32,385 nucleotides of DNA from positions 1 through 32,385 of the forward strand of contig JAFUWD010000097.1 in NCBI GenBank assembly GCA_017483645.1, in the 5' to 3' direction. Below, piece after piece: positions 1,859 to 19,577 of this stretch. A program made the position numbers and the translations under genes. The notes under the pieces were generated by a model. The model searched no databases, was not told where the DNA came from, and worked only from the letters and a program-made list of their open reading frames with translations. Positions within the stretch are counted from its first letter, which is position 1. Every line of letters begins with the position of its first letter. This stretch comes from Muribaculaceae bacterium (GTDB lineage Bacteria > Bacteroidota > Bacteroidia > Bacteroidales > Muribaculaceae).

Positions 1859-4800
1859 TCAATTTTTCACTGGGTCCACGATGATGATATCTTCGATGGG
1901 TGTGCCGCCAAAGTTTGTTCCGTCGTTATAGGTGCCGAAGAGGCGGTAGTGACCGTTGGCGACGGCTTGTCCGCTGTTGGAGCGCTGGTTCCATGTGACG
2001 GGGAATGAACTGGTGGTTGTGTTCCACACCAAGCGTCCGGCGGTGTCGGTGACCTTGACATCGACCTGCGGTGTCGAGCCCAGATTGCTTGAGAAGCCGA
2101 TGGTGACCGGTTGTCCCTTGGTGGCCATGATGTCGGGCGTGGAGAGTTTGGCACCGTTGTCCTGACCGACCATGAAGTTGATGGTGCGCGATGTGGCGTT
2201 GCCGGCCACGTCGAAGACGGTGAACGTGAGTCGGTGCAAACCGTCGCTCATGCCGGTAATCGGCATGGCCACATCCACCTGCTTGCCGTCGTTGGAGCAA
2301 GTGGCAAAAGCCTTGATGTTGAAGTCGGAGGCTTGGCCGTCGTCGAGCAGCACTTTCATGCTGTTGCCCACCGATTGCGATTGTGTGTTGATGGCATGGT
2401 CGTCGGTGGCGCGGACGTAGAGCGTGGAGTTCGATGCCACAATGGAGCCGTCACCAAAGCTGTTCTCGTCGTTGAAATAGAGGCTTTCGACCACGGGTGC
2501 CTGGGTGTCGTTGATAGCCTTGGCCGGGTCGTAGTCCTTGATGCGCACATTGCGCAGTTCGCCGTTCACCATGTTGTGGGTGCCTTGCTGGTGCGCATAG
2601 ATGCGCAGTATGCCGGGCGATGTGCTGCTTTGTGTGTAGCGCGGCACAACAATCTTTGCGGTGAAGTGTCCACGGTTCACAGTGCCTTTGACCTCGGCCA
2701 GCAGTTCGCGCTCCTTGTAGATTTTACGATAGTTGGCTATTCCGCCCGCACTGATGACACGGATGCTGTCGAAAAGTTCCTCGTGGCCGTAGAGCGAGGC
2801 GTAGGCCTCGCCTGTGAAGTTGGAGTTGACGGTAGTGGAGCCGTCGAGGGTGACATCGGCCTCGATGTTGATTTCCTGCAAGGGATAGATGTCGATGCCG
2901 GCGGCCGTCACCGCTTTGCCATTGATGCGTGTGATGGTGACGTTGGGCTTGGGATAGTTGATGTTGATGGCTGGGTCGCCCAAAAGGGCAAACACCAGCT
3001 TGTTGCTGTTCGACCCGGTGAAGTGCAGCTTGCTGTTCTTGTAGGCCTCGCCCAGTGTGGGCATGGTGCCCTTGGCTTGATAGGTGAACATGGCGTTGAC
3101 GAAGGCTCGGTTCAACTCGTCGTTGCTGCTGGCGTAGGCCGCGCGGGTCGATCCCAGCACGGCGATGCATCCGCCGTCGGGTTTGTGGAACATGGCATCG
3201 GCCACTCCGCGCTGATCGCTGTCGTACCGCGCCACGTCACAGCAAGCGGTGGTCCAGATGGGCAAGTGGGTGAACGATGTGTTCAGGGCGTCGTTCTTGG
3301 TCCACATGTGCGCTTGCTTGGTGAACATATTGGGTCCGGCATGTCCTACATAGGTGGCAAAATATTGTCCCTGCTGCGACAATTCCACCCAGTGCCGCTT
3401 GCCCTCCTTTGAAGTGCGGTTGCGCTCGTCCACAGCCGGCTCGTCGATGGCTCTGGGGAACATGGGGCAGTACACCTTGTTGATGTTCATTTGCGTCAGC
3501 AGATTGTCCTTGAGAATGTTTGCAACGCCCTCGGTTTGCGACATGTGCAGTCCGTCGTCATAGTCGTCGCAGGTGAGCATGATGTTGTTTCGCCAAGAGC
3601 CGTAATCGGGTTCGGCAACGTATTTGATGAGTTTGTCGACATTGCTGCGAGCCTCGTTCTCGTTGTTGCAAGTGAAACGTCCCACACCGATGCACAATTT
3701 GTCGCTGGCGATGTCGCGTCCAGAATTGTCGAGCAGGAAGCCGAAAAAGTCGTCGGTTGTGTACGAGTCGCGTTCAGAGTCGCTGCCCGGAGTTTCGTAG
3801 TTCACCACCAGGCTGCCATGATTTCCCATGACGTTGCGGTTGTCGTAGGTGCCATTGCCCAGCATCAGCAAATTCTTGAAGATGCCGTTGCAGCGGTCGT
3901 AGAGCATCTTGCACAGCAGGCGCACGGCCATCGGGTCTTTGGCTCCTGAAGAAAACTCGTTAAATATGTGTTCCTGCTCGACCACAGCCACCTTGATGCC
4001 GTCGACCTGTTCGTGCAGCCGGGCCACTCTTAAAGCCTGCTCATAGAAGGTCTTGCTGGTGACAATAAGCAGTTCGGGGATTTCCATGGCATGGAGGTCT
4101 TGATTCTCGACCGCATGGTAGCCGCCGATATGCTTCAATTCTTTGGTGGGGTCGAACATCACATACTGAGAGTAGCCGGAATTGGCCTTGTGGCTGAATG
4201 TGCGCCCGCCTGTGGCCTGCGTGAGGGTCATCGACACAGGAGCCAGCGGCTTGTCGATGTTCCACACCACCACATTGCTTCCGGCACCCGGCAGCATGAC
4301 CGATTGTGAGGTGCTTGCCGCCGAAAATCCCATGCGCAGTTGGTTGTCGTTGTCGGTGGGCAGGATGTTGTTGTGCTCGTAGGTGATGATGAAATAATCC
4401 AGTTTTGCACTGTTGATTACTCCTGAAACGGCTGTGATGCCCGCTTCCATCTGTCCGCGCTGTTGCAGACTGGGCAGCTCGATGTCGGCCGCCGGCGAAG
4501 CGATGCGGTAGAAGATGTAGTTGCTGCCCGGTGCGGCGATGGTGGACGAGTAGGGGAGTTCCAGGCGGCTGGTGCCGGATGTGATGGCGGCGTTCACCTT
4601 GGCCGATTCCGACACTTGCGCCGCGTAGACGGTGCGCACATTGATGACCGTGCTGGCCAACTGGGGCAGATAAAAGTCGATGACAGCATTGTTCACGGTG
4701 ATGTCCTCGCCCAGTAGCTGGCGTCCCGAATAGCTGAGCGTGCACAGGTCGCTCTCGTGCCAGAAGTAGTCGACGCTGGTGCTCACCGGTGTGCCTGTGG

Positions 4801-5263
4801 TTGCGGTGGAAGCCGGAGCCACAGTGATGGTCGGCTCGGCCGATGTGGCTTCGGTCAAGAAATAATATCCAGCATTGTCGTAACCATTATCATTGCGTGA
4901 ATAAGTGTTGTCGTAGGTGAAACTCACCGGTCCCTTGCCGTAAAAAATAATTTTGTTGTTCTGCCTCATCACCGGAACGGGTTGCAAGTCGTCGATATGC
5001 GTGCCGTCGAGCAGTTCGCTCAGCAGTCCGCCGCCCTGTCCGAAAATTCTGACATTTTGTGGAGCAGTGAAGCCCATGGCCTGAAGCTCGTTGTAGGTGA
5101 TTTGATACACCCCATTGTCGGGTATCGAGATTTTTACCCATCGTCCGCTGGCAAGTTTGGACGATGTGGCAAAAGCAGTGGCGGGCAAAGCCTGTGCACC
5201 CAAAGCGGCGCCCATGGCGCACAATATTGCGAGAACGGTTTTGAAGACAGATGATTTTGTCAT
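1859..5263 (-). CDS. C25-family (gingipain/PorU-like) cysteine peptidase, tandem copy 1
   Basis: This 1134-residue exported protein resembles the T9SS sortase PorU. A signal peptide covers about residues 1-25. An N-terminal beta-rich domain follows (RWVKISIPDNGVYQITYNEL, about 40-390), then the C25 catalytic domain (about 395-770), Ig-like modules, and a C-terminal FlgD-like/sorting-like beta domain (about 1040-1134). Catalytic candidates are His641 (YVGHAG) and Cys675 in the block TTACCDVARYD; Cys674 is next to it. NEFSSG (435-440) and LLGDPAI (760-766) are family signatures. It is the last of three tandem paralogues, 50 bases downstream of copy 2. PorU cleaves the C-terminal sorting domain of T9SS cargo and links the cargo to a surface glycolipid; this copy may do the same for other cargo or be a surface protease. 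Its tail lacks the NPA motif seen in the porU product. Confidence 0.85.
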   Translation of the reverse strand: MTKSSVFKTVLAILCAMGAALGAQALPATAFATSSKLASGRWVKISIPDNGVYQITYNELQAMGFTAPQNVRIFGQGGGLLSELLDGTHIDDLQPVPVMRQNNKIIFYGKGPVSFTYDNTYSRNDNGYDNAGYYFLTEATSAEPTITVAPASTATTGTPVSTSVDYFWHESDLCTLSYSGRQLLGEDITVNNAVIDFYLPQLASTVINVRTVYAAQVSESAKVNAAITSGTSRLELPYSSTIAAPGSNYIFYRIASPAADIELPSLQQRGQMEAGITAVSGVINSAKLDYFIITYEHNNILPTDNDNQLRMGFSAASTSQSVMLPGAGSNVVVWNIDKPLAPVSMTLTQATGGRTFSHKANSGYSQYVMFDPTKELKHIGGYHAVENQDLHAMEIPELLIVTSKTFYEQALRVARLHEQVDGIKVAVVEQEHIFNEFSSGAKDPMAVRLLCKMLYDRCNGIFKNLLMLGNGTYDNRNVMGNHGSLVVNYETPGSDSERDSYTTDDFFGFLLDNSGRDIASDKLCIGVGRFTCNNENEARSNVDKLIKYVAEPDYGSWRNNIMLTCDDYDDGLHMSQTEGVANILKDNLLTQMNINKVYCPMFPRAIDEPAVDERNRTSKEGKRHWVELSQQGQYFATYVGHAGPNMFTKQAHMWTKNDALNTSFTHLPIWTTACCDVARYDSDQRGVADAMFHKPDGGCIAVLGSTRAAYASSNDELNRAFVNAMFTYQAKGTMPTLGEAYKNSKLHFTGSNSNKLVFALLGDPAININYPKPNVTITRINGKAVTAAGIDIYPLQEINIEADVTLDGSTTVNSNFTGEAYASLYGHEELFDSIRVISAGGIANYRKIYKERELLAEVKGTVNRGHFTAKIVVPRYTQSSTSPGILRIYAHQQGTHNMVNGELRNVRIKDYDPAKAINDTQAPVVESLYFNDENSFGDGSIVASNSTLYVRATDDHAINTQSQSVGNSMKVLLDDGQASDFNIKAFATCSNDGKQVDVAMPITGMSDGLHRLTFTVFDVAGNATSRTINFMVGQDNGAKLSTPDIMATKGQPVTIGFSSNLGSTPQVDVKVTDTAGRLVWNTTTSSFPVTWNQRSNSGQAVANGHYRLFGTYNDGTNFGGTPIEDIIIVDPVKN

Positions 5264-5313
5264 TTTTTATCGGGATAATGGTTGATTGATTATGTGTATT
5301 CGTGTTTTGGGAG

Positions 5314-8300
5314 TTATTCCCCTGTGGTTATTGGATCCAGCACCACAAGATGACCGATGGGTGTGCCGCCAAAATTGGTTCCGTCGGAATAGGTGGCGAA
5401 GAAGCGGTAGGCGCCCGGTGCCACGTTGGCTCCGTCATTGTCGGTCAGAGGCCATGCAACAGGGAACGTCTTGGTCGTGGTGTTCCACACCAGCTTGCCT
5501 AATGCGTCGGTTACCTTCACCTGCACCTCGGGTGTCTCTTTCAGGTTGCAATCAAACGAAAAATCTGCTTGCTGGCCGCGAATTTTCATGATGTCGTCGA
5601 CAGTGAGCTGGGCCTCGTGGTCCTGCGTGACAACAAACGAGATGGAGCGCTTGGAGGAATTGCCCACGGCATCTTTGAGCGTGAGCGTGAGCGTGTGGTG
5701 CCCGTCGGCCAGGTTGGTGACAGGATAGGCGATGGACAGGGTGCGGCCATCGTCGAGGCAAGTGGCGTAAGCCATGACATTCGAGTAGGTAGTTTTTCCT
5801 TGGTCGAGAATCAATGAAACCGTGGTGCCTACCGAGCGGCTTCCCTGCGTGGCCATGCCGAAGTTGTCGGTTGCCAGGATATAAAGTGTCGAGTTTGACG
5901 GAACAATGGCGCCGTCGCCCATATTGTCGTTGTCGTTGAAATACATCGACTCAATCACGGGCGGCTCCTTGTCGGTGGGGGCGTTTTGTGCGTTGAGTGC
6001 GTTGATTTTTAAGCAAGCGGCATGTCCGTTCACCATGTTGCGTGTGCCGTCTTGATGGGCATAGACGCGCACCAGGGCCGAGACACCGTAAGCGCTGAGG
6101 TAGCGAGGCAGTACCACTGTGCCGGTGAAAATTCCATTCACCACGCGTCCTTTGACCTCGCCCAGCAGTTCCCGCTCGTGATAGACGGTGAGCGATTCCT
6201 CCACATTGGTGGAACTGTTTTTGCCTTTGACGGTGCCATAGGTGCGCTCGTTACTGTAAATCGACGCATAGGCATCGCCGGTGAAGAGCGAGTCGATAGC
6301 CGTTCCGTCTTCAAGCATCACCTGTGCCTCAATCTTTACAGCATGAGCCGGATAAACGGTTACTATGTCTGATTCAATCGATTTGTTGTTGACTTTGGTG
6401 ATTTGGAACAGTGGTTTGGGGTAATTCACTTCCATTGCCGGGTCACCCAGCAAAAAGAATGTGAGCTTGTTGGAATTGTCGCTGGTGAACCAGTTCTTGG
6501 CTTGGCGGTAAGCCTCGCCCAGCGTGGTGGTGCTGTGGGTGGTCTGGTAGGGGAACAGCGCGCGGATGAATGCGCGGTTGAGCAAGTCGTTGCTGCTGGC
6601 AAATGCCATGCGTGACGAGGTGAGCATGGCAATGGCGCCGCCGTCGGGTTTGTGGAACATCACTTCAGCCACGCCCCGTTGGTCACTGTCGTAGCGTGCC
6701 ACATCGCAGCAAGCTGTCGACCAGATGGGGAAGTGGTTGAAACTGGTGTTCTGCACGTCGGTCATGGTCCACATGTGGGCCACCTTGGTGAAGCCTGTAG
6801 GGCCGGCGTGTCCCACATAAGTGGCAAAGAACTGCCCCCTTTGAGAAAGCTCGGCCCAGTGACGTTTGCCTTCGGTAGCCGTTTTCTCATTGGCACCGAT
6901 GCGTGGCTCGTCCACGGCACGCGGATAGATGGGGCAATACACTTTGTTCATTTGCATCTTGGGTTGCAGCTCCGTCTTGATGATATTGGCAATACCTTCG
7001 GCCTGAAACATGTGCAGCCCGTCGTCCATGGCATCGCAAGTAATCATCAGGTTGTTTCGCCAGGTTCCATAGTCAGGATTGGCGTAATAACCGATTTGCT
7101 TGTCGGCGCATCGTTTGGCCTCCATCGCATCGCGGCAAGTGATGCGCCCCACACCGATAACCATTTTTTGCTTGCTCGATGAGAGCTTGTTGCTGTCGCC
7201 GTCGGTGAGATGGGCGAAAAAGTCGTCGGTGGTATAGGTGGCACTCTCCGAAACGGCTGTGGTCGAAATGTTGGCTTCATCCATCTCGTAGTTAATTAGC
7301 GCAAATCCATGAGTTTGCAAGATGTTGCGGTTGTCGAATGACGCACCTCCGAACAAAAGAAGGTTTTGGAACGTTGTGCCACCACGGTCATAGAACATTT
7401 TGCACAACAGTCGCAGCGCCATAGGGTCGCGCCGACCCGACGAAAACTCATTAAACACCTCTTCTTGGTCGATAACGGCCACTTTCAGGCCATCTATCAC
7501 TTCGTGCATGCGCGCCATTCGTTGGGCTTGTTCCATGAACATCTGGTTGGTGACAATGAGCAGATTGGGAACCTCCAATCCATGTAGATTCTGGTTGGGG
7601 ACCGCCTCGTGGCTTGCCACTTTTTTGAGTGTCTGCGCAGGGTCGAAGGCAATATACGAGGCGTAGCGGGCGTTGATGCCCGGTGAGAATGATTGGTCGT
7701 CGGTTTGCCACGGAAGCATGGTCATTGCTTTTGGTTGATAGGCGTCGGTGACATCCCATACCATAGTAGTGGCAGAGGCTCCGGGAAGTACCAGCCGGGT
7801 GGTATCGGCCAGCTGCACAACGGTCATCCGCAGTTGGTTGTTGGCGTCTTCCGGGATGATATTACTGTGTTGATAGGTGGCTATTATGTAGTCGAGTTTG
7901 GCCGAATTGATGATTCCCGAGGGAGAATACATGCCTACCTCAATCTGGCCCCGCTCTTCGGGCTGGTCAAGGGTCAGAGTGGTGCGGGGCGATGCTGTGT
8001 GATAATACACCTGGTCAGATGGCTTTTGGATAGCTGAAGACGCCATTGTATAGCCCACGTCTTGGCGAATGTCGCCCGTGTGGATGTACGTTTCGATGTA
8101 GCTCGATGCCGTCACCTTGCCGGCCGCCGTGGTCTGAAGCGTTATTTCTGGGCTCGACAGATGGGGCAGGTAGAAGTCGATAAAGACGTTGTTGTCGGCA
8201 ATGTCCTCGCCCAAAAGCCCGCGACCTGAGTTACTGAGAGTTGACATTTCTCTCTCGTGCCAAAAGTAGTCGTAACTGGTGGTAATCGGGGTAGAACTCA

Positions 8301-8784
8301 CCGTGCTCGACGGGGCAACAACGGGAATGTTGATTTCGGCTAATCCCGTTTCGCTGTCGGACAAGAAGTAGTAACCGTAGGAAGTGTAACCATTGAACCG
8401 ACGGCTGAAGTAGGGTGTGGTGAGGGGATTGTTGAGGGTGAATAACTCAGGTCCCTGCCCGTAAAAGACGAGTTTGTCGTCCAAGCGCATCATGGGTGCC
8501 GGCTTGATGTCGTCGTCGTGGCTGCCGTCGAGCGTCTCGGACCACCCGATGCCACCCTTGCCGTAGAGCCGCACCTGCTCGGGATTGTCAAATCCCATTT
8601 CACGCAGTTCGTCGAAGGTGATTTCATAGATTCCGCAATCGGGAACGGCGATTTTCACCCAGTTGCCCGTCGACAGCAGCGAGGTGGTGGTGAAATGCGC
8701 TGCATTATATGCTTGGGCGCTACCGGTCGCACAGATGGCAACCGCCAGTCCTATGGTCCATCGAAGAAATCCGAGTTTTTTCAT
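5314..8784 (-). CDS. C25-family (gingipain/PorU-like) cysteine peptidase, tandem copy 2
   Basis: The product is 1156 residues with a signal peptide (about 1-25, WTIGLAVAICATGSAQA) and the same layout as its two neighbours: an N-terminal beta domain with NWVKIAVPDCGIYEITFDEL, a C25 domain (about 410-790), Ig-like modules, and a terminal beta domain. The predicted catalytic pair is His659 (YVGHAG) and Cys693 (STACCDVARYD), 34 residues apart as in the other copies. Shared signatures include VFNEFSSG, MALRLLCKMFYDR, MFHKPDGG and LLGDPAM. The tail ends in NFGGTPIGHLVVLDP. Nucleotide differences from copies 1 and 3 around the active site are largely at third codon positions, which points to long-kept function. 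It lies 24 bases after copy 3 and 50 before copy 1, so one transcript is likely. Its substrate is unknown. Confidence 0.85.
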   Translation of the reverse strand: MKKLGFLRWTIGLAVAICATGSAQAYNAAHFTTTSLLSTGNWVKIAVPDCGIYEITFDELREMGFDNPEQVRLYGKGGIGWSETLDGSHDDDIKPAPMMRLDDKLVFYGQGPELFTLNNPLTTPYFSRRFNGYTSYGYYFLSDSETGLAEINIPVVAPSSTVSSTPITTSYDYFWHEREMSTLSNSGRGLLGEDIADNNVFIDFYLPHLSSPEITLQTTAAGKVTASSYIETYIHTGDIRQDVGYTMASSAIQKPSDQVYYHTASPRTTLTLDQPEERGQIEVGMYSPSGIINSAKLDYIIATYQHSNIIPEDANNQLRMTVVQLADTTRLVLPGASATTMVWDVTDAYQPKAMTMLPWQTDDQSFSPGINARYASYIAFDPAQTLKKVASHEAVPNQNLHGLEVPNLLIVTNQMFMEQAQRMARMHEVIDGLKVAVIDQEEVFNEFSSGRRDPMALRLLCKMFYDRGGTTFQNLLLFGGASFDNRNILQTHGFALINYEMDEANISTTAVSESATYTTDDFFAHLTDGDSNKLSSSKQKMVIGVGRITCRDAMEAKRCADKQIGYYANPDYGTWRNNLMITCDAMDDGLHMFQAEGIANIIKTELQPKMQMNKVYCPIYPRAVDEPRIGANEKTATEGKRHWAELSQRGQFFATYVGHAGPTGFTKVAHMWTMTDVQNTSFNHFPIWSTACCDVARYDSDQRGVAEVMFHKPDGGAIAMLTSSRMAFASSNDLLNRAFIRALFPYQTTHSTTTLGEAYRQAKNWFTSDNSNKLTFFLLGDPAMEVNYPKPLFQITKVNNKSIESDIVTVYPAHAVKIEAQVMLEDGTAIDSLFTGDAYASIYSNERTYGTVKGKNSSTNVEESLTVYHERELLGEVKGRVVNGIFTGTVVLPRYLSAYGVSALVRVYAHQDGTRNMVNGHAACLKINALNAQNAPTDKEPPVIESMYFNDNDNMGDGAIVPSNSTLYILATDNFGMATQGSRSVGTTVSLILDQGKTTYSNVMAYATCLDDGRTLSIAYPVTNLADGHHTLTLTLKDAVGNSSKRSISFVVTQDHEAQLTVDDIMKIRGQQADFSFDCNLKETPEVQVKVTDALGKLVWNTTTKTFPVAWPLTDNDGANVAPGAYRFFATYSDGTNFGGTPIGHLVVLDPITTGE

Positions 8785-8808
8785 CTTTATAACACTTAAT
8801 GGTGGAAA

Positions 8809-11800
8809 TTATTTATTGGTCTTGACAGGCGCGAGCACGATGAGACGCTGCGGAGCGGTTCCGCCGTAGGTCGAACCGTCGTTGAATGTGGCGAAATACC
8901 GATAGGCCCCCGCCGGAACGTTATTGCCTGTGTTGTCTTTCAAATCCCAAGTCAGGGGGAAGGATGTTGTGGTGTCGCTCCACACCAGCCGCCCGTTGTT
9001 ATCGGTGACTTTCACAGTTACCTCGGGTGCCGAGCGCAGTTCGGTCGTGAAATCGAAAGTTGTGGCCTGCCCCGATATGGTCATCATGTCGTTGGCGGTG
9101 AGCTGGGCATCAGCCGTTTTGGTCACAACAAACGAAATGGACCTCGATGCTTTGTTCCCGACTGCGTCGTAGACGCTGAACAGCAGTGTGTGCATGCCTT
9201 CGCTCAGCGCTGAGAGCGGCATGGCCACGTCGATGGTCTTGCCGTCGTCGGTGCACTCCATGTAGCTGTTAATATTCAGATAGGTGGTGCTGCCTTCATC
9301 GAGTATCAACGATAATCCGTTGCCCACCGAGTTGCTTTGTGTGTTAAATGCAAAGTCGTCGGTGGCATGGATGTAAAGCACACCGTCGGGTTGGACGATG
9401 GTGTTGCTTGCAAAGGTTTGCTCGTCATTGATAAACATGCTTTCGATGACCGGTGCCTGTTCATCGTTGATGGCTTGCTCGGGCATGAAGGTGCAAATGC
9501 GCACCTGCTCAGTCTGTCCGTTCACCATATTAGGTGTGTAGTCTTGATGTGCATAGACCCTCAGCATTCCTGTGCGGCCATTGGCAGTGGTGTTGCGCGG
9601 GACAATGAATTTGCCTGTGAACAAACCGTTCTCCACCCGTCCCTTGACCTCGGCCAGTCGTGCACGGTCGTAAAATACGGCACGAGGTAGGATGTCGGTT
9701 GACGAGTACTCATTGCGCACAGTGTCGTAGAAGGCTTTATAGTCATAGAGCGTGACGTAGGCGTCACCGGTGAATTCGGTGTTGACCGAGGTGCCGTCGT
9801 CAGTCATCACTTGTGCTTTGACTGTGACCTCCTGCAGGGGGTATACCGGTACGGTGTCGGTTCCCAGTTCGGTGCCGTTGATGCTGGTGATTTTGAAATA
9901 GGGCTTGGGGTAATTGACCTGGATGGCAGGGTCTCCCAGCAAGTAGAAGGACATCTTGTTGGAATTGGATCCGGAATAGTACTGTTTACAATTTTTGTAG
10001 GCTTCGCCCAGTGTGGGCATGGAGCCTTTTTCTTGGAAACTGAACATGGCGTTGATAAATGCTCGGTTCAGCACATCGTTGTCCGAAGCATAGGCTTGTC
10101 GCGACGATGTGAGCATGGCAATGCCCCCGCCATCGGGCTTGTGAAACATCACCTCGGCCACTCCACGGTTGGGACCGTCGTACCGAGCCACGTCACAGCA
10201 GGCAGTGGTCCAAATGGGCATGTGCTCGTAAGAGGTCTTTTTCACATCCTCCATTGTCCACATGTGGGCCACCTTGGTGAATCCTGCATGGCCTGCATGG
10301 CCAATGTATGAGGCAAAATATTGTCCTTGTTTCGACATCTTTTCCCAGTAACGGCGGCCTTCCTTGGCGGTGCGTTCGTCGGCTTTGATTTCCGTCTCGT
10401 CAGCTGCGCGTGGGAAAAGTGAGCAGTAAACCTTGTTGACGTTCATCTGAGTGTTCAAGTCGTTTTCAAGCGTATAGGCCACACGCTCGGCTTGGAACAT
10501 GTGCAGTTCTTGGTCAAATTGGTCACAGATGATCATCATGTTGTTGCGCCAAGTGCCGTAATCAGGGTTGCCAATATATTTCACGAGTTTGTCGACATCA
10601 GACTTGGCTTCTTCTAAGTCACGACTGGTGATGCGTCCCACGCCAATGCAGAGTTTGTTTGAGGTCACGTTTGATCCTGCATTATCAATCAACTGTCCGA
10701 AAAAATCATCCGCGGTAAACGAAGAGTCTTCTTCCTCACTATTGTCGGTCTCGAAATTGACGAGCATGTCATCGACTTTGCCGCCAAGCATGCCACGGTT
10801 ATCGAATGTGCCAGGGCCAAACATGAGAAGGTTTTTGAACTTGTCGGGGTCACGGTCGTAGAGCATCTTGCAGAACAGACGCACAGCCATTGCGTCCATG
10901 CCGCCCGATGAAAACTCGTTGAATACTTGTTCCTGTTCCACAACGGCCACGGTAATGCCATCGACTTGTTCATGCAGCTGGGCCAAACGATGTGCTTGCT
11001 CCACAAAAGACTTGTTGGTGACGATGAGCAGTTCCGGCACTTCCATGCCATGAAGGTTCTGGTTGTCGACATCTTTGTAGCCCGAAATTTTCTTGAGGGT
11101 GAGGGCCGGGTCAAAAGCCACATATTGCGCATAACGAGAGTTGACACCAGGAACAAAAGTACGGCTACCGTCTTCATCAGGGTCACTCAATTGCATCTTT
11201 TTAGGAGTTGTTGGGTTAGTTACATCCCACACCATCACCGTGGGTGCCACTTGAGGCAACTTCACCACATCGGTGTCGGAGGGATGGGCAAACCCCATGC
11301 GCACCTGATTGCCTTCCTCGGCAATGATGGTGTTGTGGTGCTTGTAGGTAATGATAAAATAGTCGAGATAAGCTTTGTTTACCACTCCGTTAGGTGACCA
11401 AAATCCAATTTCAAGCTGCCCTCTCTCAGTGGGAGTGATGAGGTTGATGGATTTACAGGGACTGATACATCTATAGTACTGAAAATCGTTTCTGGGCGGA
11501 GCGACTTTTGAAGAAGCCAGAGAATAAGTCATATCCTGCCGGTTATCTCCACTGTGCACGAAGGTTTCCAAGTAGGCGGTGGCAGTGACTTTAGCTGCGC
11601 CCGATGTAAGTACGGTAATGGTTGGATCGCTCAGATTGCGCAAAAAATAGTCCACCATGAGATAACCCTTAGGAATGGTTTCACCCAGCAATTGCTTTCC
11701 CATCAGTGCCACGCTGCACAGTTCCTGCTCGTGCCAGTAGTAGTCGAGACTGCTGGTGTGCGGATATAAGGTGAAGGGAATGCTTGCCGGGGTAACTGTT

Positions 11801-12282
11801 TCGATCGTGGTGGGCGCATCGGTTCTCTCGGTCAAGAAATAGTAGCCTTGCCTGTCGTAGGCGTTCATTCGCCGTGTGTAGTTGGGGTTGTTTAACGGGT
11901 CGCTGAGTGTGAAATTCACGGCGCCTTGCGCGTAGAAAACGATTTTATCGTTCTCATATGCAATAGGCACAGCACTCAGGTCATCGGGGTGACCACTCAG
12001 AATTTCGTCCATCATGTCACCTCCGCGTCCGAAAAGGCGTACATTCTCGGGTGCGGAAAATCCCATTTGAGCCAGTTCGTCGTAAGTGATTTCGTATATA
12101 CCGGTTTCAGGAATGGATATTTTCACCCATTTGCCGGTTGCCAGTTGTGACTGGGTTGTGAAATGAGAAGCGTTGAAAGCCCAAGCGTTCATGGCAAGCA
12201 GGGTGCCAAGTGCGAGCGAGAGCAGGCGGTGGATAGCTGAGTTTTGCATATTCGGTGAGTGTTTTAGTTGCGTTTTGTTCAA
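8809..12282 (-). CDS. C25-family (gingipain/PorU-like) cysteine peptidase, tandem copy 3
   Basis: The product is 1157 residues and is the first translated of the three tandem copies, 50 bases after the FAH-fold gene. The ATG at 12282 gives a rather long basic region before the hydrophobic signal core; an ATG at 12249 (residue 12) would give a more usual 24-residue signal peptide, so the start is uncertain. The C25 domain spans about 415-795. The predicted catalytic pair is His662 and Cys696 (TTACCDVARYD). The His loop reads GHAGHAG, placing a second His three residues on, unlike the other copies. Other family blocks are FNEFSSGG, MLYDRD, MFHKPDGGG and LLGDPAI. The terminal beta domain ends in STYGGTAPQRLIVL. 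It is probably a cell-surface T9SS-associated protease or sortase variant. Confidence 0.85.
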   Translation of the reverse strand: MNKTQLKHSPNMQNSAIHRLLSLALGTLLAMNAWAFNASHFTTQSQLATGKWVKISIPETGIYEITYDELAQMGFSAPENVRLFGRGGDMMDEILSGHPDDLSAVPIAYENDKIVFYAQGAVNFTLSDPLNNPNYTRRMNAYDRQGYYFLTERTDAPTTIETVTPASIPFTLYPHTSSLDYYWHEQELCSVALMGKQLLGETIPKGYLMVDYFLRNLSDPTITVLTSGAAKVTATAYLETFVHSGDNRQDMTYSLASSKVAPPRNDFQYYRCISPCKSINLITPTERGQLEIGFWSPNGVVNKAYLDYFIITYKHHNTIIAEEGNQVRMGFAHPSDTDVVKLPQVAPTVMVWDVTNPTTPKKMQLSDPDEDGSRTFVPGVNSRYAQYVAFDPALTLKKISGYKDVDNQNLHGMEVPELLIVTNKSFVEQAHRLAQLHEQVDGITVAVVEQEQVFNEFSSGGMDAMAVRLFCKMLYDRDPDKFKNLLMFGPGTFDNRGMLGGKVDDMLVNFETDNSEEEDSSFTADDFFGQLIDNAGSNVTSNKLCIGVGRITSRDLEEAKSDVDKLVKYIGNPDYGTWRNNMMIICDQFDQELHMFQAERVAYTLENDLNTQMNVNKVYCSLFPRAADETEIKADERTAKEGRRYWEKMSKQGQYFASYIGHAGHAGFTKVAHMWTMEDVKKTSYEHMPIWTTACCDVARYDGPNRGVAEVMFHKPDGGGIAMLTSSRQAYASDNDVLNRAFINAMFSFQEKGSMPTLGEAYKNCKQYYSGSNSNKMSFYLLGDPAIQVNYPKPYFKITSINGTELGTDTVPVYPLQEVTVKAQVMTDDGTSVNTEFTGDAYVTLYDYKAFYDTVRNEYSSTDILPRAVFYDRARLAEVKGRVENGLFTGKFIVPRNTTANGRTGMLRVYAHQDYTPNMVNGQTEQVRICTFMPEQAINDEQAPVIESMFINDEQTFASNTIVQPDGVLYIHATDDFAFNTQSNSVGNGLSLILDEGSTTYLNINSYMECTDDGKTIDVAMPLSALSEGMHTLLFSVYDAVGNKASRSISFVVTKTADAQLTANDMMTISGQATTFDFTTELRSAPEVTVKVTDNNGRLVWSDTTTSFPLTWDLKDNTGNNVPAGAYRYFATFNDGSTYGGTAPQRLIVLAPVKTNK

Positions 12283-12332: not shown

Positions 12333-12914
12333 TCACCTGATTCGGATGTCGAGCACCGTTTTGTCGTCGATGGCGGCATGCAGGCGTTGCCCGATGGTCA
12401 ATGGCAATCCATAGGGATGCATTGCCAGAACGATGATGTCGCCCGTTTTCAGCGTGCAGTACCGGCTCACGCTTTCCACCACGGTAGCAGCATTGAATGC
12501 CAAGTGCTGTGTGGAGGCTTGGCATACTGCCTTGCCGTCGCACATCATGGTGAGTTGTGCATCATTCAGATGCTCCAGCTGCCGGTCATCAACAATCCAG
12601 TCACCAAGCATCAGGCTGCCGTCGATGGCGTCAACCAATGACTGGCGCAACCGCTCCTCGTCGTTCTCGGCAGTGGCCACAATGGCTGCTGTGAACTCGT
12701 TACAATAGCGGTGTACAAATTTGCTTGCCACAAATTTGCCAAGACGGCTGATGCGCATGGCCACTGCCAAGCGCCCCACCAGCCGTGGGGTCACATCGGG
12801 GATGAAAAAGGGCTTGTCGGTTCGCATAATGGCCGAATCGGCCATCAAGTGTGCCGCCACGCTTGGCGGGCAGTAATTTTCATCCCAATTATGTTCTACC
12901 GCAATAACCTTCAT
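12333..12914 (-). CDS. FAH-fold protein, probable pseudoenzyme
   Basis: This 193-residue protein fits the short fumarylacetoacetate-hydrolase (FAH) type known in Bacteroidetes: the blocks RISRLGK (54-60), HRY (68-70), DGSLMLGD (98-105) and the C-terminal LKTGDII...PLTIGQRL follow the FAH pattern. Active FAH enzymes bind a divalent metal through an ExE pair just before the R-RLGK block and an Asp about 25 residues later. Here, by eye, those positions are Arg48, Ala50 and Val79, the usual Arg-Asp after TA is Glu83-Asn84, and the usual Lys before the DGS block is Asp95. The metal site therefore looks lost and catalysis is doubtful. The gene starts 10 bases after rex and is followed by the C25 array. 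The comparison is with remembered family motifs, not an alignment. Confidence 0.7.
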   Translation of the reverse strand: MKVIAVEHNWDENYCPPSVAAHLMADSAIMRTDKPFFIPDVTPRLVGRLAVAMRISRLGKFVASKFVHRYCNEFTAAIVATAENDEERLRQSLVDAIDGSLMLGDWIVDDRQLEHLNDAQLTMMCDGKAVCQASTQHLAFNAATVVESVSRYCTLKTGDIIVLAMHPYGLPLTIGQRLHAAIDDKTVLDIRIR

Positions 12915-12924
12915 TCCAATCGGC

Positions 12925-13587
12925 TCACAGGTTGTTGAGCATCCTGTTGTAGATGATGGCCAGATGGGCGTAGATTGAAGTGTTGGCTATCACAATGTTG
13001 GCCGGCGCCTTGATGCGGAATGGGGTGAAATTCCAAATCGCTTTGATGCCAGCCTTGATGGCCATGTCGGCAGCTTCCTGTGAGTGCTCCACAGGCACGG
13101 TGAGGATAGCAATCGACACGTTATATTCTTTTTGCCGTTGATCGAGCTCGCCGATGTCGTATATGGGCACCCCGCAGATACTGCTGCCTATCAGGGTGTT
13201 GCTTACATCGAATCCCGCCACGATGTTTAGTCCGTACTGTGCCAGACCCACATCCTGCATCAGCGCTCCTCCCAGTGAGCCAGCGCCAATCACCACGGCA
13301 TTATGCTTTCTCTTGAATCCTAAAAAGTCCACCAGTTCTTTCACCAGTGTTTTTACTTCGTAGCCAATGCGTGTTTTGCCCTTGATATTGAGAAATGACA
13401 GGTCTTTGGCTATTTGGGAAGCGTCGACGTTGAGTTCTTTTGAGATTTGAGTCGACGACACATAATCCACCTGCTGGTTGTCCAGCATTTTCACATAAGC
13501 CAAGTACCACGGCAGTCGCCGCAGCGTAGGCTCGGGAAGGATGGGGCGGAGAGTTGTGTTTTTATTGTCGTTCATGCCTGATTTCAT
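12925..13587 (-). CDS. rex: Redox-sensing transcriptional repressor Rex
   Basis: The protein (220 residues from this start) is Rex, a dimeric repressor that leaves its operators when the NADH/NAD+ ratio rises and so controls fermentative and respiratory genes. The N-terminal winged helix is seen in QISKELNVDASQIAKDLSFL, and the Rossmann fold carries GAGSLGG (about 101-107) for dinucleotide binding, followed by GFDV and PVEHSQEAADMAIKAGI. The C-terminus ends in a domain-swap helix. An in-frame TTG further upstream (13605) lies before the likely transcription start, so it was rejected; ATG at 13575 is a fair alternative to 13587. It sits 70 bases after porU and 10 before the FAH-fold gene. I found no convincing Rex operator in the window. 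Confidence 0.95.
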   Translation of the reverse strand: MKSGMNDNKNTTLRPILPEPTLRRLPWYLAYVKMLDNQQVDYVSSTQISKELNVDASQIAKDLSFLNIKGKTRIGYEVKTLVKELVDFLGFKRKHNAVVIGAGSLGGALMQDVGLAQYGLNIVAGFDVSNTLIGSSICGVPIYDIGELDQRQKEYNVSIAILTVPVEHSQEAADMAIKAGIKAIWNFTPFRIKAPANIVIANTSIYAHLAIIYNRMLNNL

Positions 13588-13602
13588 GTCTTTACCAAAG
13601 TG

Positions 13603-13610
13603 CAAATATA
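13603..13610 (-). promoter_or_regulatory. Possible internal promoter for rex
   Basis: The minus strand reads TATATTTG, a full TAnnTTTG match, placing a transcription start near 13598, 11 bases before the chosen ATG. No clear -33 box is present. If real, rex, the FAH-fold gene and the C25 array can be transcribed separately from porU. Confidence 0.45.
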
Positions 13611-13657: not shown

Positions 13658-16600
13658 TCACTCGGAGGTGACAGCCAGTTTTTTGCTCTTGGTGGCCTCA
13701 TGGACTCCGTCGGTGGAAATGATGGCACGGTAGATGTAAATGCCGCGCTGAACCCGCCTGCCACCGTTGTCCTGGAGCGTCCAGGTAACGGGCACGGTGG
13801 TGTAGGAATCGCTCCGTCCAGTCTGGACTGTGTTCCAAATTCGGCGCCCCATCAGGTCAAACACTTCGATGGTCACGGTGACCATGGCGTCGGGACGGTT
13901 GTGCTTTACATAGAATTTTGTTTCCACCGATGCCGGGTTGCCCAATGCATATACATCGGCAATTTCGGGTTTAAGTCCATTTACTACATTGAACGTGATG
14001 GTGCGTTGGCTGGAATTGTTATAGACGTCCCACACCTTGAGCCGTAGTGTGTGCGGCCCTTCAGACAAATTGGTGAGCGGGTAATTGATATTACCGCGTG
14101 AGCCCTGCGTGGCCATCAGCGGGGTATAGTAGGTGGTGATGTTGTTGAAACTGGTTTTTTCGTCAAGGGTAAGGGAAATGGCGTGTCCGATGCCGCTTGT
14201 GGCCAAATTGATGCCGTTGGCATCACTCACGGTGGCCAGCAGTTGCGGGCTCTCGTTCACCTCATCCCCGTCGTTGAAAGCTGCGGTGTTCAGTGCCATG
14301 GTTTCAATGACGGGCCCCACGGTGTCGGGTTTCACCGTATGGTCGTAACCCAAGATACAGAAGTCCTCCGATGAACCGATGGCTTCGATGGAATCGCGGG
14401 TGGAGTAGGCGTATAGATTGATGCGTGCCGACAAGTCGGTGTCGTAGTTGGGTACGAGCATTTCGCTGGGCAGCGTGATTTTGACGTTGAATTTTCCATT
14501 GGTCACCGAGTCGACCGAGACGGCAAGTTTGTTCTCGCGGTCGTAGAACAGGAATGGTTTGCCATTGCCGTTGCCATGAGTGAGCGTGGAGTCGGCGCGG
14601 TCGAACAAGGTGGAAGTGATTGTGCCGTTAAAGCCTGTGGCCACTTGGCCGTTGGGGGCAACTATGGAGCCTGAGAAAGTCACCGTTTGGCGGGCTTGCA
14701 GCACAAGCAGGGTGTCGGAGTCGACCGATGTGCCGTTGATGCTCTCAATCACTGCGCGATGGCTGGGCATGGCAATGCGCATGGCCGGGTCGCCCAGCAG
14801 GAAGTAGCGTAGTGAGTTGCCGTTGCCCAGGCCGCGGTTCTTGCCCAGTCGCAAGATGTCGCCTACACGGCGGGGCAGATTGTTCTCGTCACGGCTGAAA
14901 ATGTATCGTCCCACGGCGGCGTTCAAGAAGCCGTTGCTGCCCGAGTAAACCAGTCGTGGCGGGGAAATGACGGCGATGGCGCCTCCGTTGGCGTTGAGAA
15001 ACACTTGCTCGCCGCACGACGGGTTGGTGCCGTCGAATCGCGTGAACTCGCAGGTGGCGGCATAGAGCACAGGAAGGTGGTGATAAAATAAATTCTGAGC
15101 CACATCGCCCCTGCGGAGCAAGTTGTTGGCTGTCATGGCGTTCGGGCTGGCGTGGCCCGTATAGTTCCACCATACCACACCCTCGCGCAGCGTGTTGTAC
15201 AATTTGTCGCGGGCCTCGGGATATTCTCGGTTACCGCCATTGCTCACGTCGTCAAAAGCGTCGATGAACACATGATTGAACTGGTAGTCACTGCCACCAT
15301 TGGCTTTAGCTATCTGTATCAAGTTCTCGGCTTGTTCCATGTGGGCGGCTTGGTCCTCGTCGTCGGCAACATTGAGCACCGATGCTTTCCACGAGCCAAA
15401 ATCGGGCTGTGAGGTGTATTTGATGAGTTTGTCGACGGCTGTGCGTGCCTCGTCAAGGCTGCGCACAGGGAAACGCCCCACGGCAATGTCGTGGTTGGCA
15501 TCGGCCAGTACGGCTCCCGAGCCGTCGGCCAGCGCGCTGCAGTAGTCATCGCTGGTGTATGAGCTGTTTTCGTAATTGCTTGCGGGCGTTTGCCATGTGA
15601 GCAGCTTGGGATAGCTCAGGGACTGCTTGCTGTCGCCAATGGAGCGGTTGTTATAGTTGCCGCATCCCAGCAGCAACATGTAGCCCAGTCGGTGGGAGGT
15701 GCTGTCGGTTCCACGGTCCCACATCATTTTGGCCAAATGCCGATAGGCAATGAAATCGGGTGTGCCCGATGAGAACTCGTTAAATACTGCTTCTTGGTCC
15801 ACAACGAGCACCCGCATCTTGTCCACCTTGCGGTGCATGGCGGCCACGCGCTCGGCCTGGGTCAGGTACTGAGTGGGGCTGATGATAATCAAGTCGGGGA
15901 TGGGCTGACCATGCAGGTCTTGTGTTTTTACCTTGTCACTGGCCAGCGTGGGGCGGTCAAAGGCATTGTCGCTCTCATCCCACACCACCAGTTCGCGCCG
16001 GCCGTTGGCAATGGGCGAAAAAAGCAAGTCGGTGCCATTTAGGCTGGTGGTTACCTGCTTGATGGCCCAGGGTTGTGTCACATCCCACACCTTGGTTGAT
16101 TGTCCTCCACCGGTGACAAGATAGGTTTGGGAGGTGGAGGCTTGGGCGAGTCCCACGCACAGCTGCGAGTTGTTGCTCATGTCGAGGGCGCGCTGGTAGT
16201 TCACCGTGATATAGTCGAGCCTGGCCAATGTGGCGTTGTTGTTCGAGAAATTGACGGTATAGGTGATTTCAGGAGTGGCACCGTTCTCCATTGCGATGCT
16301 CTTGGTGAAAGATTTGAACAAGTACAGGCAATGTGCGTCGGTTGTCGAGCCGATGGAGTCGCGTCGGTTGTTGGGGTTCAGGCTGTTGCCGTTGCACTGG
16401 AATGTGAGGTAATTGACACCCGATGTGGATCGTGCGGCAAAGTTGGTGACAACGTTCACCGATGTGCCGCCCTGCAGGCCGGGCAGGTCGAATTTGAATG
16501 ATTGCGACTTGGTGTAGCGGAAATCCTCACCCAGAAACACACGGCCAGTCTCGCCTGGATTGGTGTATTCCTCTTCGTGGAAGGCGCGCTCGGTGAATGT

Positions 16601-17098
16601 GCGAATCGGGCTGTCTGACTCGGCCACTGTTCCGGCTGCAGGAACTTCGATGTCCTCGCCCTGGTCGCTTACGAAATAATAGGCCAGCGTGGAGTAGGGG
16701 TGCTGCACCTGAATATGTGGCACAAGGGTGGACCCTGTCTGCCATGTGATGGGACCTTGCGCATAGAACAAGATGCGGTCATCACGCCTCACCACCGGCA
16801 CCGGCGGCAGGTCGTCGGGGGCGTCGTCACTGAGCACTTCCGACAATGGCGCGCCACCGAAGCCGTACACATGCACTTTGCTGAGGTCGGGAAAACCCCA
16901 GTTCCGTGCGTCGGCGGCAGTGATTTGGAAAATGCCGCTATGGTCAACGGCAATTTTTACCCATCTGCCCTCGGCCAGTTTTGAATGTGAGGCATAGCGC
17001 CCGGCGTCGTAGGCCAAAGCCGTCGAGTATCCTGTCAAGAATAACAAGAATGCAGTGGCACAGTGCTTTATGAATAATTTTGTGCGATATTTCATCAT
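13658..17098 (-). CDS. porU: Type IX secretion system sortase PorU
   Basis: This 1146-residue exported protein has the size and layout of PorU, the outer-membrane C25 peptidase that removes the C-terminal sorting signal from T9SS cargo and attaches the cargo to surface lipopolysaccharide. Signal peptide 1-29; N-terminal beta domain with RWVKIAVDHSGIFQIT; C25 domain about 400-775. The catalytic pair is His649 (YTGHAS) and Cys683 (AATCEFTRFD), 34 apart, in near-identical places to the PorU of Porphyromonas gingivalis as I recall it. After Ig-like modules the C-terminus carries GNPA (1053-1056), IEVFDLMGRRIW and GIYIYRAII, a CTD of the FlgD/T9SS type. It lies in front of rex; porV, the usual partner, is not in the window. 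Of the four C25 genes here, this one best deserves the name PorU. Confidence 0.88.
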   Translation of the reverse strand: MMKYRTKLFIKHCATAFLLFLTGYSTALAYDAGRYASHSKLAEGRWVKIAVDHSGIFQITAADARNWGFPDLSKVHVYGFGGAPLSEVLSDDAPDDLPPVPVVRRDDRILFYAQGPITWQTGSTLVPHIQVQHPYSTLAYYFVSDQGEDIEVPAAGTVAESDSPIRTFTERAFHEEEYTNPGETGRVFLGEDFRYTKSQSFKFDLPGLQGGTSVNVVTNFAARSTSGVNYLTFQCNGNSLNPNNRRDSIGSTTDAHCLYLFKSFTKSIAMENGATPEITYTVNFSNNNATLARLDYITVNYQRALDMSNNSQLCVGLAQASTSQTYLVTGGGQSTKVWDVTQPWAIKQVTTSLNGTDLLFSPIANGRRELVVWDESDNAFDRPTLASDKVKTQDLHGQPIPDLIIISPTQYLTQAERVAAMHRKVDKMRVLVVDQEAVFNEFSSGTPDFIAYRHLAKMMWDRGTDSTSHRLGYMLLLGCGNYNNRSIGDSKQSLSYPKLLTWQTPASNYENSSYTSDDYCSALADGSGAVLADANHDIAVGRFPVRSLDEARTAVDKLIKYTSQPDFGSWKASVLNVADDEDQAAHMEQAENLIQIAKANGGSDYQFNHVFIDAFDDVSNGGNREYPEARDKLYNTLREGVVWWNYTGHASPNAMTANNLLRRGDVAQNLFYHHLPVLYAATCEFTRFDGTNPSCGEQVFLNANGGAIAVISPPRLVYSGSNGFLNAAVGRYIFSRDENNLPRRVGDILRLGKNRGLGNGNSLRYFLLGDPAMRIAMPSHRAVIESINGTSVDSDTLLVLQARQTVTFSGSIVAPNGQVATGFNGTITSTLFDRADSTLTHGNGNGKPFLFYDRENKLAVSVDSVTNGKFNVKITLPSEMLVPNYDTDLSARINLYAYSTRDSIEAIGSSEDFCILGYDHTVKPDTVGPVIETMALNTAAFNDGDEVNESPQLLATVSDANGINLATSGIGHAISLTLDEKTSFNNITTYYTPLMATQGSRGNINYPLTNLSEGPHTLRLKVWDVYNNSSQRTITFNVVNGLKPEIADVYALGNPASVETKFYVKHNRPDAMVTVTIEVFDLMGRRIWNTVQTGRSDSYTTVPVTWTLQDNGGRRVQRGIYIYRAIISTDGVHEATKSKKLAVTSE

Positions 17099-18549: not shown

Positions 18550-18623
18550 ATCATTTTTATCCTTTGCAGAACGACGATTATTGAAAAACCAAAAAAAGTG
18601 TCATTCTCTAATGTTTTTTTTTG

Positions 18624-18657
18624 TACTTTTGTTGCGTTAATTGCATAAATAATTTTG
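18624..18657 (+). promoter_or_regulatory. Two overlapping promoter candidates for the PepSY-like pair
   Basis: TACTTTTG (18624-18631) and TAATTTTG (18650-18657) both match TAnnTTTG. The second has a TTTG (18628-18631) 18 bases upstream, so the first box may double as the -33 element of the second. Leaders would be about 36 or 10 bases before the ATG at 18672. Confidence 0.45.
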
Positions 18658-18671
18658 TAAGAACGATTACT

Positions 18672-19109
18672 ATGAAATCAATCAAATTTATTTTGCCCTG
18701 TGTGGCGGCTGTGATGACACTGATGGTCTGCTCGTGTGACGACCGTCCTGTGGCTCCTGCCGAGTTGCCAGTTGCGATACAATCATTTGTGAAACAATAT
18801 TTTCCTCAGTCGCAGATTGCTTTCGCCCAAAAGGATATTGAATTGTTTGGGGCAAACTACTCACTTGTGTTGAACGACGGTACAGAGATTGACTTTGATG
18901 GCGAAAAGTGCGACAAAGTAGATGCCAAGATGAAAGCTGTGCCTCAGGCATTGGTGCCTGCTCCCATCAGCACCTACGTCACCACAACTTTCCCCGGTGT
19001 CATGATAACCAAGATTGACCAAGAGCGCTACGGCTATGAGATAGAGCTTTCGAGTGGCCTGGAGTTGAAATTCAACAAACAAGGTGCGCTCATGGAGATG
19101 GATGATTGA
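18672..19109 (+). CDS. PepSY-like lipoprotein
   Basis: From the ATG at 18672 the product is 145 residues. The hydrophobic N-terminus ends in MVCSCDD; Cys22 followed by two Asp fits a Bacteroidetes lipoprotein with a surface-export-like acidic tail. The mature part is a PepSY-like (putative beta-lactamase-inhibitor-like, DUF2874) fold made of two similar halves: LPVAIQSFVKQYFP...YSLVLNDGTEIDFD and APISTYVTTTFPG...YEIELSSGLELKFN. Such proteins are small, exported, and of largely unknown function in gut Bacteroidales. An in-frame TTG at 18621 was rejected because the promoter region lies over it and because this ATG places the signal at the N-terminus. The gene is 36 bases before a paralogue. 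Confidence 0.85.
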   Translation: MKSIKFILPCVAAVMTLMVCSCDDRPVAPAELPVAIQSFVKQYFPQSQIAFAQKDIELFGANYSLVLNDGTEIDFDGEKCDKVDAKMKAVPQALVPAPISTYVTTTFPGVMITKIDQERYGYEIELSSGLELKFNKQGALMEMDD

Positions 19110-19145
19110 GAACCAAATTATTAACACTATATATTATAATCGATT

Positions 19146-19577
19146 ATGAAAAACATTAAGATTTTAATGATGGCCATGATGGTCGTAGGGATGAGTTTTG
19201 CGGCAAAGGCCGACGACGACCGAGTTATTACTTTCCAGCAGCTGCCGGCAGCTGCCCAGGCATTCCACAAGGCACACTTCAGCAAAAATGTTCCTTTGGT
19301 TGTGACAATGGACTGGGATGACTATACCATTGTCTATGAGAGCGGTGAGAAAGTGGAATTTGACAGGAATGGCGAGTGGAAAGATATTGATTGCCGTATG
19401 TCGGTTGTTCCGTCTGTCCTCGTCCCCGAGCAAATCAAGGCTGCCGTGAAGACTACGTTCCCCGCTGCCTCAATTGTCAAGATTGACAGGAACCGCCGTG
19501 GTTATGAGGTGAAGCTCAACAACGGTATGGAGGTGGAGTTTAACAGGGCATTCCAAGTTATCGACATCGACGATTAA
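19146..19577 (+). CDS. PepSY-like secreted protein
   Basis: This 143-residue protein is a paralogue of the gene just before it. Residues 1-22 form a signal peptide with cleavage after AAKA, and there is no lipobox, so this copy is predicted soluble in the periplasm while its neighbour is lipid-anchored. The two-fold PepSY-like pattern is clear: LPAAAQAFHKAHFS...YTIVYESGEKVEFD and PEQIKAAVKTTFPA...YEVKLNNGMEVEFN. It ends in an acidic tail IDIDD. The two genes likely share a transcript that stops at the strong terminator 20 bases downstream. Function unknown; sensing or binding in the envelope is possible but not shown. Confidence 0.87.
   Translation: MKNIKILMMAMMVVGMSFAAKADDDRVITFQQLPAAAQAFHKAHFSKNVPLVVTMDWDDYTIVYESGEKVEFDRNGEWKDIDCRMSVVPSVLVPEQIKAAVKTTFPAASIVKIDRNRRGYEVKLNNGMEVEFNRAFQVIDIDD

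Follow-up and report, generated by a model that had tools for sequence, protein, structure and literature searches.

Tandem PorU-like genes beside porU in a Muribaculaceae genome: apparent in-paralogs of a type IX secretion sortase

PorU is generally regarded as an essential, single component of the type IX secretion system (T9SS). In a published genome survey of the family Muribaculaceae (PMC4936053), 22 of 30 genomes are reported to have all ten of the T9SS components listed, one of which is PorU, and the available excerpt makes no mention of a second PorU copy. For Porphyromonas gingivalis, the excerpts of PMC8545088 and PMC5562754 describe PorU-PorV and PorQ-PorZ as subcomplexes; PorZ is a surface protein that binds anionic lipopolysaccharide (A-LPS) and then PorU. 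Here we describe a stretch of DNA (the window, 32,385 nucleotides, positions 1–32385 of contig JAFUWD010000097.1, C75 here) from a Muribaculaceae bacterium (GCA_017483645.1, 2.11 Mb in 101 contigs, 78.8% complete), in which three tandem genes related to porU lie next to porU itself. These genes are called UL1, UL2 and UL3 (for PorU-like), and UL is used for them and their relatives. The preliminary description of the window did not recognise this arrangement as a described system, and a literature search agrees: no description of PorU paralogs was found among the open-access papers listed (subscription papers and preprints were outside the search), and 'paralog' and 'duplicat' are absent from the main text of PMC7323717.

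That three tandem PorU-like genes stand beside porU on the minus strand, as first described, is confirmed by both the PorU and the C25 models. The NCBIfam PorU model NF033707 (length 1095, cut-off 420 bits) gives 718.6, 673.7 and 716.9 bits for UL1–3 over model positions 2–1071 or 2–1078, and 941.6 bits for the PorU of the window; Pfam Peptidase_C25 is matched by all four proteins. Against structures, a UL profile reaches 731 bits (730.9) with the P. gingivalis PorU (6za2) and 32 bits with gingipain R, and the best Foldseek match of an AlphaFold model of UL (predicted local distance difference test score, pLDDT, 88.9) is again 6za2, over the whole length. UL shares with PorU the C25 His and Cys, an N-terminal beta domain, Ig-like domains and a domain resembling the T9SS C-terminal domain (CTD); a signal peptide could be read by eye. 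Known from sequence alone, UL differs from PorU in forming a sister clade with about 30% identity to the PorU of the same genome (about 30–32% in the window, where UL1–3 are 51–52% identical among themselves), in evolving faster, in having several tandem copies, and in an altered last CTD strand followed by a short tail. Other candidate families were rejected. PorU2 (NF052324, putative) is a related C25 family, but the UL match to it is partial, ending at about position 778 of 879, and the scores of UL1–3 (87.7, 88.2 and 94.8 bits) lie below the cut-off of 450 and close to that of the window PorU (85). Descent from gingipains is rejected on the profile scores given above; RgpB and Kgp have other accessory domains and are not the closest family. 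Separase, CHAT proteases and complement, considered as structural kin, rank well below gingipains and PorU.

The place of UL was established on trees. In a FastTree tree of 211 non-identical full-length proteins, UL forms a clade of 114 proteins (support 0.973), the PorU of the family forms another of 62 (1.0), and the two are joined with support 1.0 against other Bacteroidales. Proteins shorter than 1000 amino acids, mostly cut by contig ends, are outside this tree and outside the active-site count given below. A tree of C25 domains, which the preliminary description had called for, likewise has UL in a clade of its own (0.953), sister to the family PorU (0.998; joint clade 0.993), with the P. 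gingivalis PorU outside. When 70 of the 211 proteins were put through a fast IQ-TREE analysis, the SH-like approximate likelihood ratio test values were 95.5 for UL, 100 for PorU and 100 for the joint clade. Since UL is monophyletic and sister to the PorU of the same family, UL genes are ancient in-paralogs of PorU, dating from the stem of Muribaculaceae. On the same trees UL falls outside PorU in the strict sense, as a separate sister clade, and UL and the family PorU together are co-orthologous to the P. gingivalis PorU; in working parts UL strongly resembles PorU.

UL has evolved about 1.7 times faster than PorU, the mean depth from the UL/PorU split being 1.76 (genus) and 1.94 (family) substitutions per site for UL versus 1.07 and 1.08 for PorU. 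UL1, UL2 and UL3 each pair with their own copy in the sister genome of locus L133, and for UL1 and UL3 there are matching full-length copies in L034 and L036 as well (one assembly, RUG12782); the triplication therefore predates these species. Across 32 multi-copy loci, the nearest relative lies within the same locus for 14 of 80 UL proteins, a number that is approximate, with duplicates removed. Against the sister genome, the ratio of nonsynonymous to synonymous substitution rates (dN/dS) is 0.092, 0.075 and 0.097 for UL1, UL2 and UL3, compared with 0.069 for porU; the C25 domain alone gives 0.045, 0.047 and 0.069 for the UL genes and 0.051 for porU. Between the UL copies the proportion of nonsynonymous differences (pN) is 0.33–0.34 and that of synonymous differences (pS) 0.64–0.69, and dN/dS is 0.23–0.32, which is indicative only at a dS of 1.4–1.9. 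By the values against the sister genome, each UL copy is under strong purifying selection, and the earlier statements that most differences between the copies are silent and that the copies are old and under selection hold for all three.

The UL array is not a private oddity of this genome. PorU-model matches number four in the window's own genome, all on the same contig, and at least two in all 61 genomes of the genus that were searched, its own included. When UL is counted as these matches minus one PorU-type match (minus two in seven genomes with a second match of about 845–881 bits), the copies per genome are one in 17 genomes, two in 20, three in 11, four in nine, five in two and six in two, so the array sought in related genomes is read as one to six UL copies throughout the genus. 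Some of these counts are uncertain, with genes cut by contig ends and porU itself a fragment in a few genomes. Named relatives within the genus include ruminant assemblies. In a survey of 99 Muribaculaceae genomes, 98 have a PorU-model match: 82 have at least two, 16 have one, and a single genome has none. No internal stop was found among the genus matches listed, and among the family matches listed one UL match (in G147) has a TAG inside it. As a separate observation, noted for locus L135 (13376–16810 and 16938–19991), the second PorU-type match that the seven genus members have besides UL (about 845–881 bits) adjoins the first in G048; in G018, G002, G031 and G034, among others, it is found at another place in the genome.

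Gene order was compared in 20 regions of the family, 17 of which carry UL; the other three (L158, L166 and L167) hold porU without UL. In all 17 UL-bearing loci a rex-FAH pair stands before UL, in 15 porU lies upstream of rex, and in 11 porV follows UL directly. In the window genome porV is not beside the array, and the best match to the PorV/PorQ model NF033709 is on contig C73. Two loci from other families (L186 and L188) have the order rex-FAH-porU-porV, as against rex-FAH-UL in Muribaculaceae; UL therefore occupies the slot that porU holds elsewhere, and the Muribaculaceae porU lies upstream of rex.

Tandem PorU genes are also seen in other Bacteroidales families, with adjacent pairs in at least 22 of the 198 genomes sampled from the whole order. 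This, together with the genus counts, does not bear out the earlier view that T9SS genomes normally have one PorU. As in UL loci, porV is often close by (beside the second copy in 13 of 15 loci fetched). The pairs differ from UL in that the proteins are mostly about 1270 amino acids long, both copies exceed 1170 bits in the 22 pairs counted, rex-FAH was not seen between the copies, and they fall in a separate part of the tree. The upstream copies of the 15 fetched pairs (L171–L185) form one clade of their own (0.999) outside Muribaculaceae, so PorU was duplicated more than once in Bacteroidales. The recurrence of such pairs, and the fact that UL1–3 and PorU all score above the NCBI PorU cut-off, would be in line with UL copies providing extra porU dosage and having no separate role. 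We consider this highly improbable, as UL and PorU are separate sister clades throughout the family, with the low identity and the rate difference described above, and the window copies predate the split from the sister genome.

The active site is preserved in every protein aligned. No C25 protein of at least 1000 amino acids lacks the catalytic His or Cys (237 aligned, including 26 identical duplicates), in line with the intact active sites first noted. The His-to-Cys distance of 34 residues, also noted earlier, is correct for UL1–3 and the window PorU but is not itself notable, because 32–34 residues is usual among the aligned rows listed and the P. gingivalis PorU has 33. Near the active Cys, UL has residues specific to it (Cys 674, Trp 654); among those conserved in UL of the genus is a second Cys just before the active one, present in 0.95 of 96 proteins. 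At the C-terminus, none of the 27 UL proteins aligned deviates from Gly 1076 of UL1, and in our reading of the alignment this residue probably corresponds to the glycine of the CTD beta3-beta4 loop, which the accessible part of PMC11285876 reports as essential for export. The C-terminal motif in that part of the paper has a lysine in the last strand; UL1–3 lack the KK pattern that PorU has there, and among the rows listed several other UL proteins of the genus retain one Lys.

UL might instead act on PorU as a regulator or structural partner; in a heterodimer, for instance, it could keep PorU latent or enlarge the attachment complex, and catalysis would be secondary. The P. gingivalis PorU was crystallised as a latent dimer, according to the title of 6za2, and UL has the PorU fold over its whole length. 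In a purely structural role, loss of His or Cys would be expected in some copy, but neither is lost in any of the 237 proteins, and the constraint on C25 is the strongest, or close to the strongest, of any domain; we regard such a role as improbable.

A second set of observations concerns the partners of PorU. T9SS parts in the window genome include a SprA fragment at a contig end, PorV/PorQ-family genes and PorZ. The idea that PorV shuttles match UL in number was rejected: in a search of 59 genomes, three of them genus members (G000, G033 and G099), NF033709 has two strong matches in each of these three, one near 400–427 bits and one near 174–190, read as PorV and PorQ, with a third match besides in G033. 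PorZ, in contrast, is amplified. The window genome has two tandem PorZ-type genes of 474 and 238 bits, the latter below the family cut-off of 260 (contig C1, 6311–10957; L192 and L193), and two or more PorZ-type matches occur in 60 of the 61 genomes of the genus, with up to six in one relative (G006). In the loci fetched (L254–L264 and L271–L273) the extra PorZ copies are lineage-specific and often form tandem sets, an amplification that resembles that of UL. Across the 61 genomes the numbers of UL and of extra PorZ genes are weakly correlated (Spearman 0.35, p 0.006), and after independent contrasts in 37 of the 61 the correlation is not significant (r 0.29, p 0.08). In the wider family a second PorZ-type gene occurs in at least 14 of 59 genomes, all 14 of which have at least two PorU-model matches; 33 others have at least two PorU-model matches and no second PorZ-type gene among the matches listed. 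The genomes are related, and this co-occurrence is only suggestive. A new C-terminal sorting motif shared by UL and the PorZ paralogs was looked for by eye, and none was found.

The number of UL copies was also compared with that of possible cargo. It shows no correlation with the number of type A CTD matches, which include some PorU CTDs (Spearman 0.09, p 0.47, n=61); UL number thus does not follow cargo number, which argues against one sortase per cargo class. The preliminary description had offered two explanations, dedicated sortases for separate cargo classes or a surface protease family that arose from the sortase. Descent from the sortase is upheld, and the assignment of one sortase to each cargo class is disfavoured.

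In the main rival to a role in attachment, UL would be a cysteine endopeptidase, either at the surface or released: an effector of the T9SS, derived from the sortase, that acts on dietary, host or competitor proteins and is like gingipains in role, not in descent. The missing link between UL number and CTD matches would suit such a protease, as would the tandem amplification to between one and six copies in the genus, the faster evolution compared with PorU, and the UL-specific residues near the active Cys. On the other side, the whole PorU layout is retained, N-terminal and CTD-like domains included, the gingipain R profile score is far below that of PorU, UL lies directly before porV in most of the family loci, and PorZ is amplified in the same genus. 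Taken together we find the protease explanation somewhat unlikely. Because of the sequence and the parallel amplification of PorZ, attachment machinery is favoured over a gingipain-like effector, and we give about even weight to the proposal that UL proteins work in the T9SS attachment complex as accessory sortases and share PorV or PorQ.

UL goes back to a duplication of PorU in the ancestor of Muribaculaceae, followed by tandem amplification in one genus. As an accessory sortase, the protein would be exported through the T9SS and held at the outer membrane by an uncleaved CTD on shared PorV or PorQ barrels, where it may act as an accessory C25 transpeptidase or peptidase. Its active Cys would cut a substrate at the junction of cargo and CTD, or another surface protein, and the acyl-enzyme could be resolved either by water or by an amine-bearing glycolipid that PorZ or one of its paralogs presents. 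Substrate or glycan partner may differ from copy to copy. In a more specific form, which we consider rather doubtful, one PorV and one PorQ would serve alternative pairs of sortase and glycan carrier, each UL with its own PorZ-like partner.

The genes of the locus are collected in Table 1. They run in one direction, in the order porU, rex, FAH-like, UL3, UL2, UL1, with gaps of 10–83 bases. For UL3 the ATG is the likelier start, since it lies 33 bases into the open reading frame (ORF) and the signal peptide follows directly.

Table 1. Genes of the porU-UL locus, in window coordinates
Feature	Position	Strand	Length (amino acids)	Description
UL1 (P0001)	1859..5263	-	1134	In-paralog of PorU; from the N-terminus: signal peptide, beta domain, C25, two Ig-like domains, CTD-like domain
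UL2 (P0002)	5314..8784	-	1156	Second in-paralog of PorU in the tandem; layout as UL1
UL3 (P0003)	8809..12249	-	1146 (1157 for the ORF 8809..12282)	Third in-paralog of PorU in the tandem; start of the listed ORF TTG 12282, ATG 12249 likelier
FAH-like protein	12333..12914	-	193	Between rex and UL
rex	12925..13605	-		Redox-sensing repressor; conserved neighbour of the locus
porU (P0004)	13658..17098	-	1146	Slower-evolving canonical T9SS sortase

Some neighbouring genes may be mentioned. The FAH-like protein is a conserved occupant of the interval between rex and UL or porU, including in two loci of other families, and its gene has the highest dN/dS among the seven genes compared (0.18). A secreted XAC2610-related protein (1293–1838) is encoded 20 bases past UL1 in the same direction, and among 95 loci scanned its relatives are found only in L133, L035 (the same assembly) and L034. 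Two adjacent PepSY-like proteins are encoded on the plus strand at 18621–19577.

The NCBI PorU model would label each UL gene of the window as porU. If UL is a distinct paralog family, both the annotation and the interpretation of mutants in this abundant gut and rumen family need correcting. The amplification of PorU- and PorZ-type genes in one genus offers a way to ask if T9SS anchoring diversifies like the sortases of Gram-positive bacteria. If UL and PorZ-like proteins do form a paired system, surface proteins would receive different glycolipids or be joined at different junctions, and this would be a Gram-negative counterpart of the class-specific sortases in Gram-positive bacteria.
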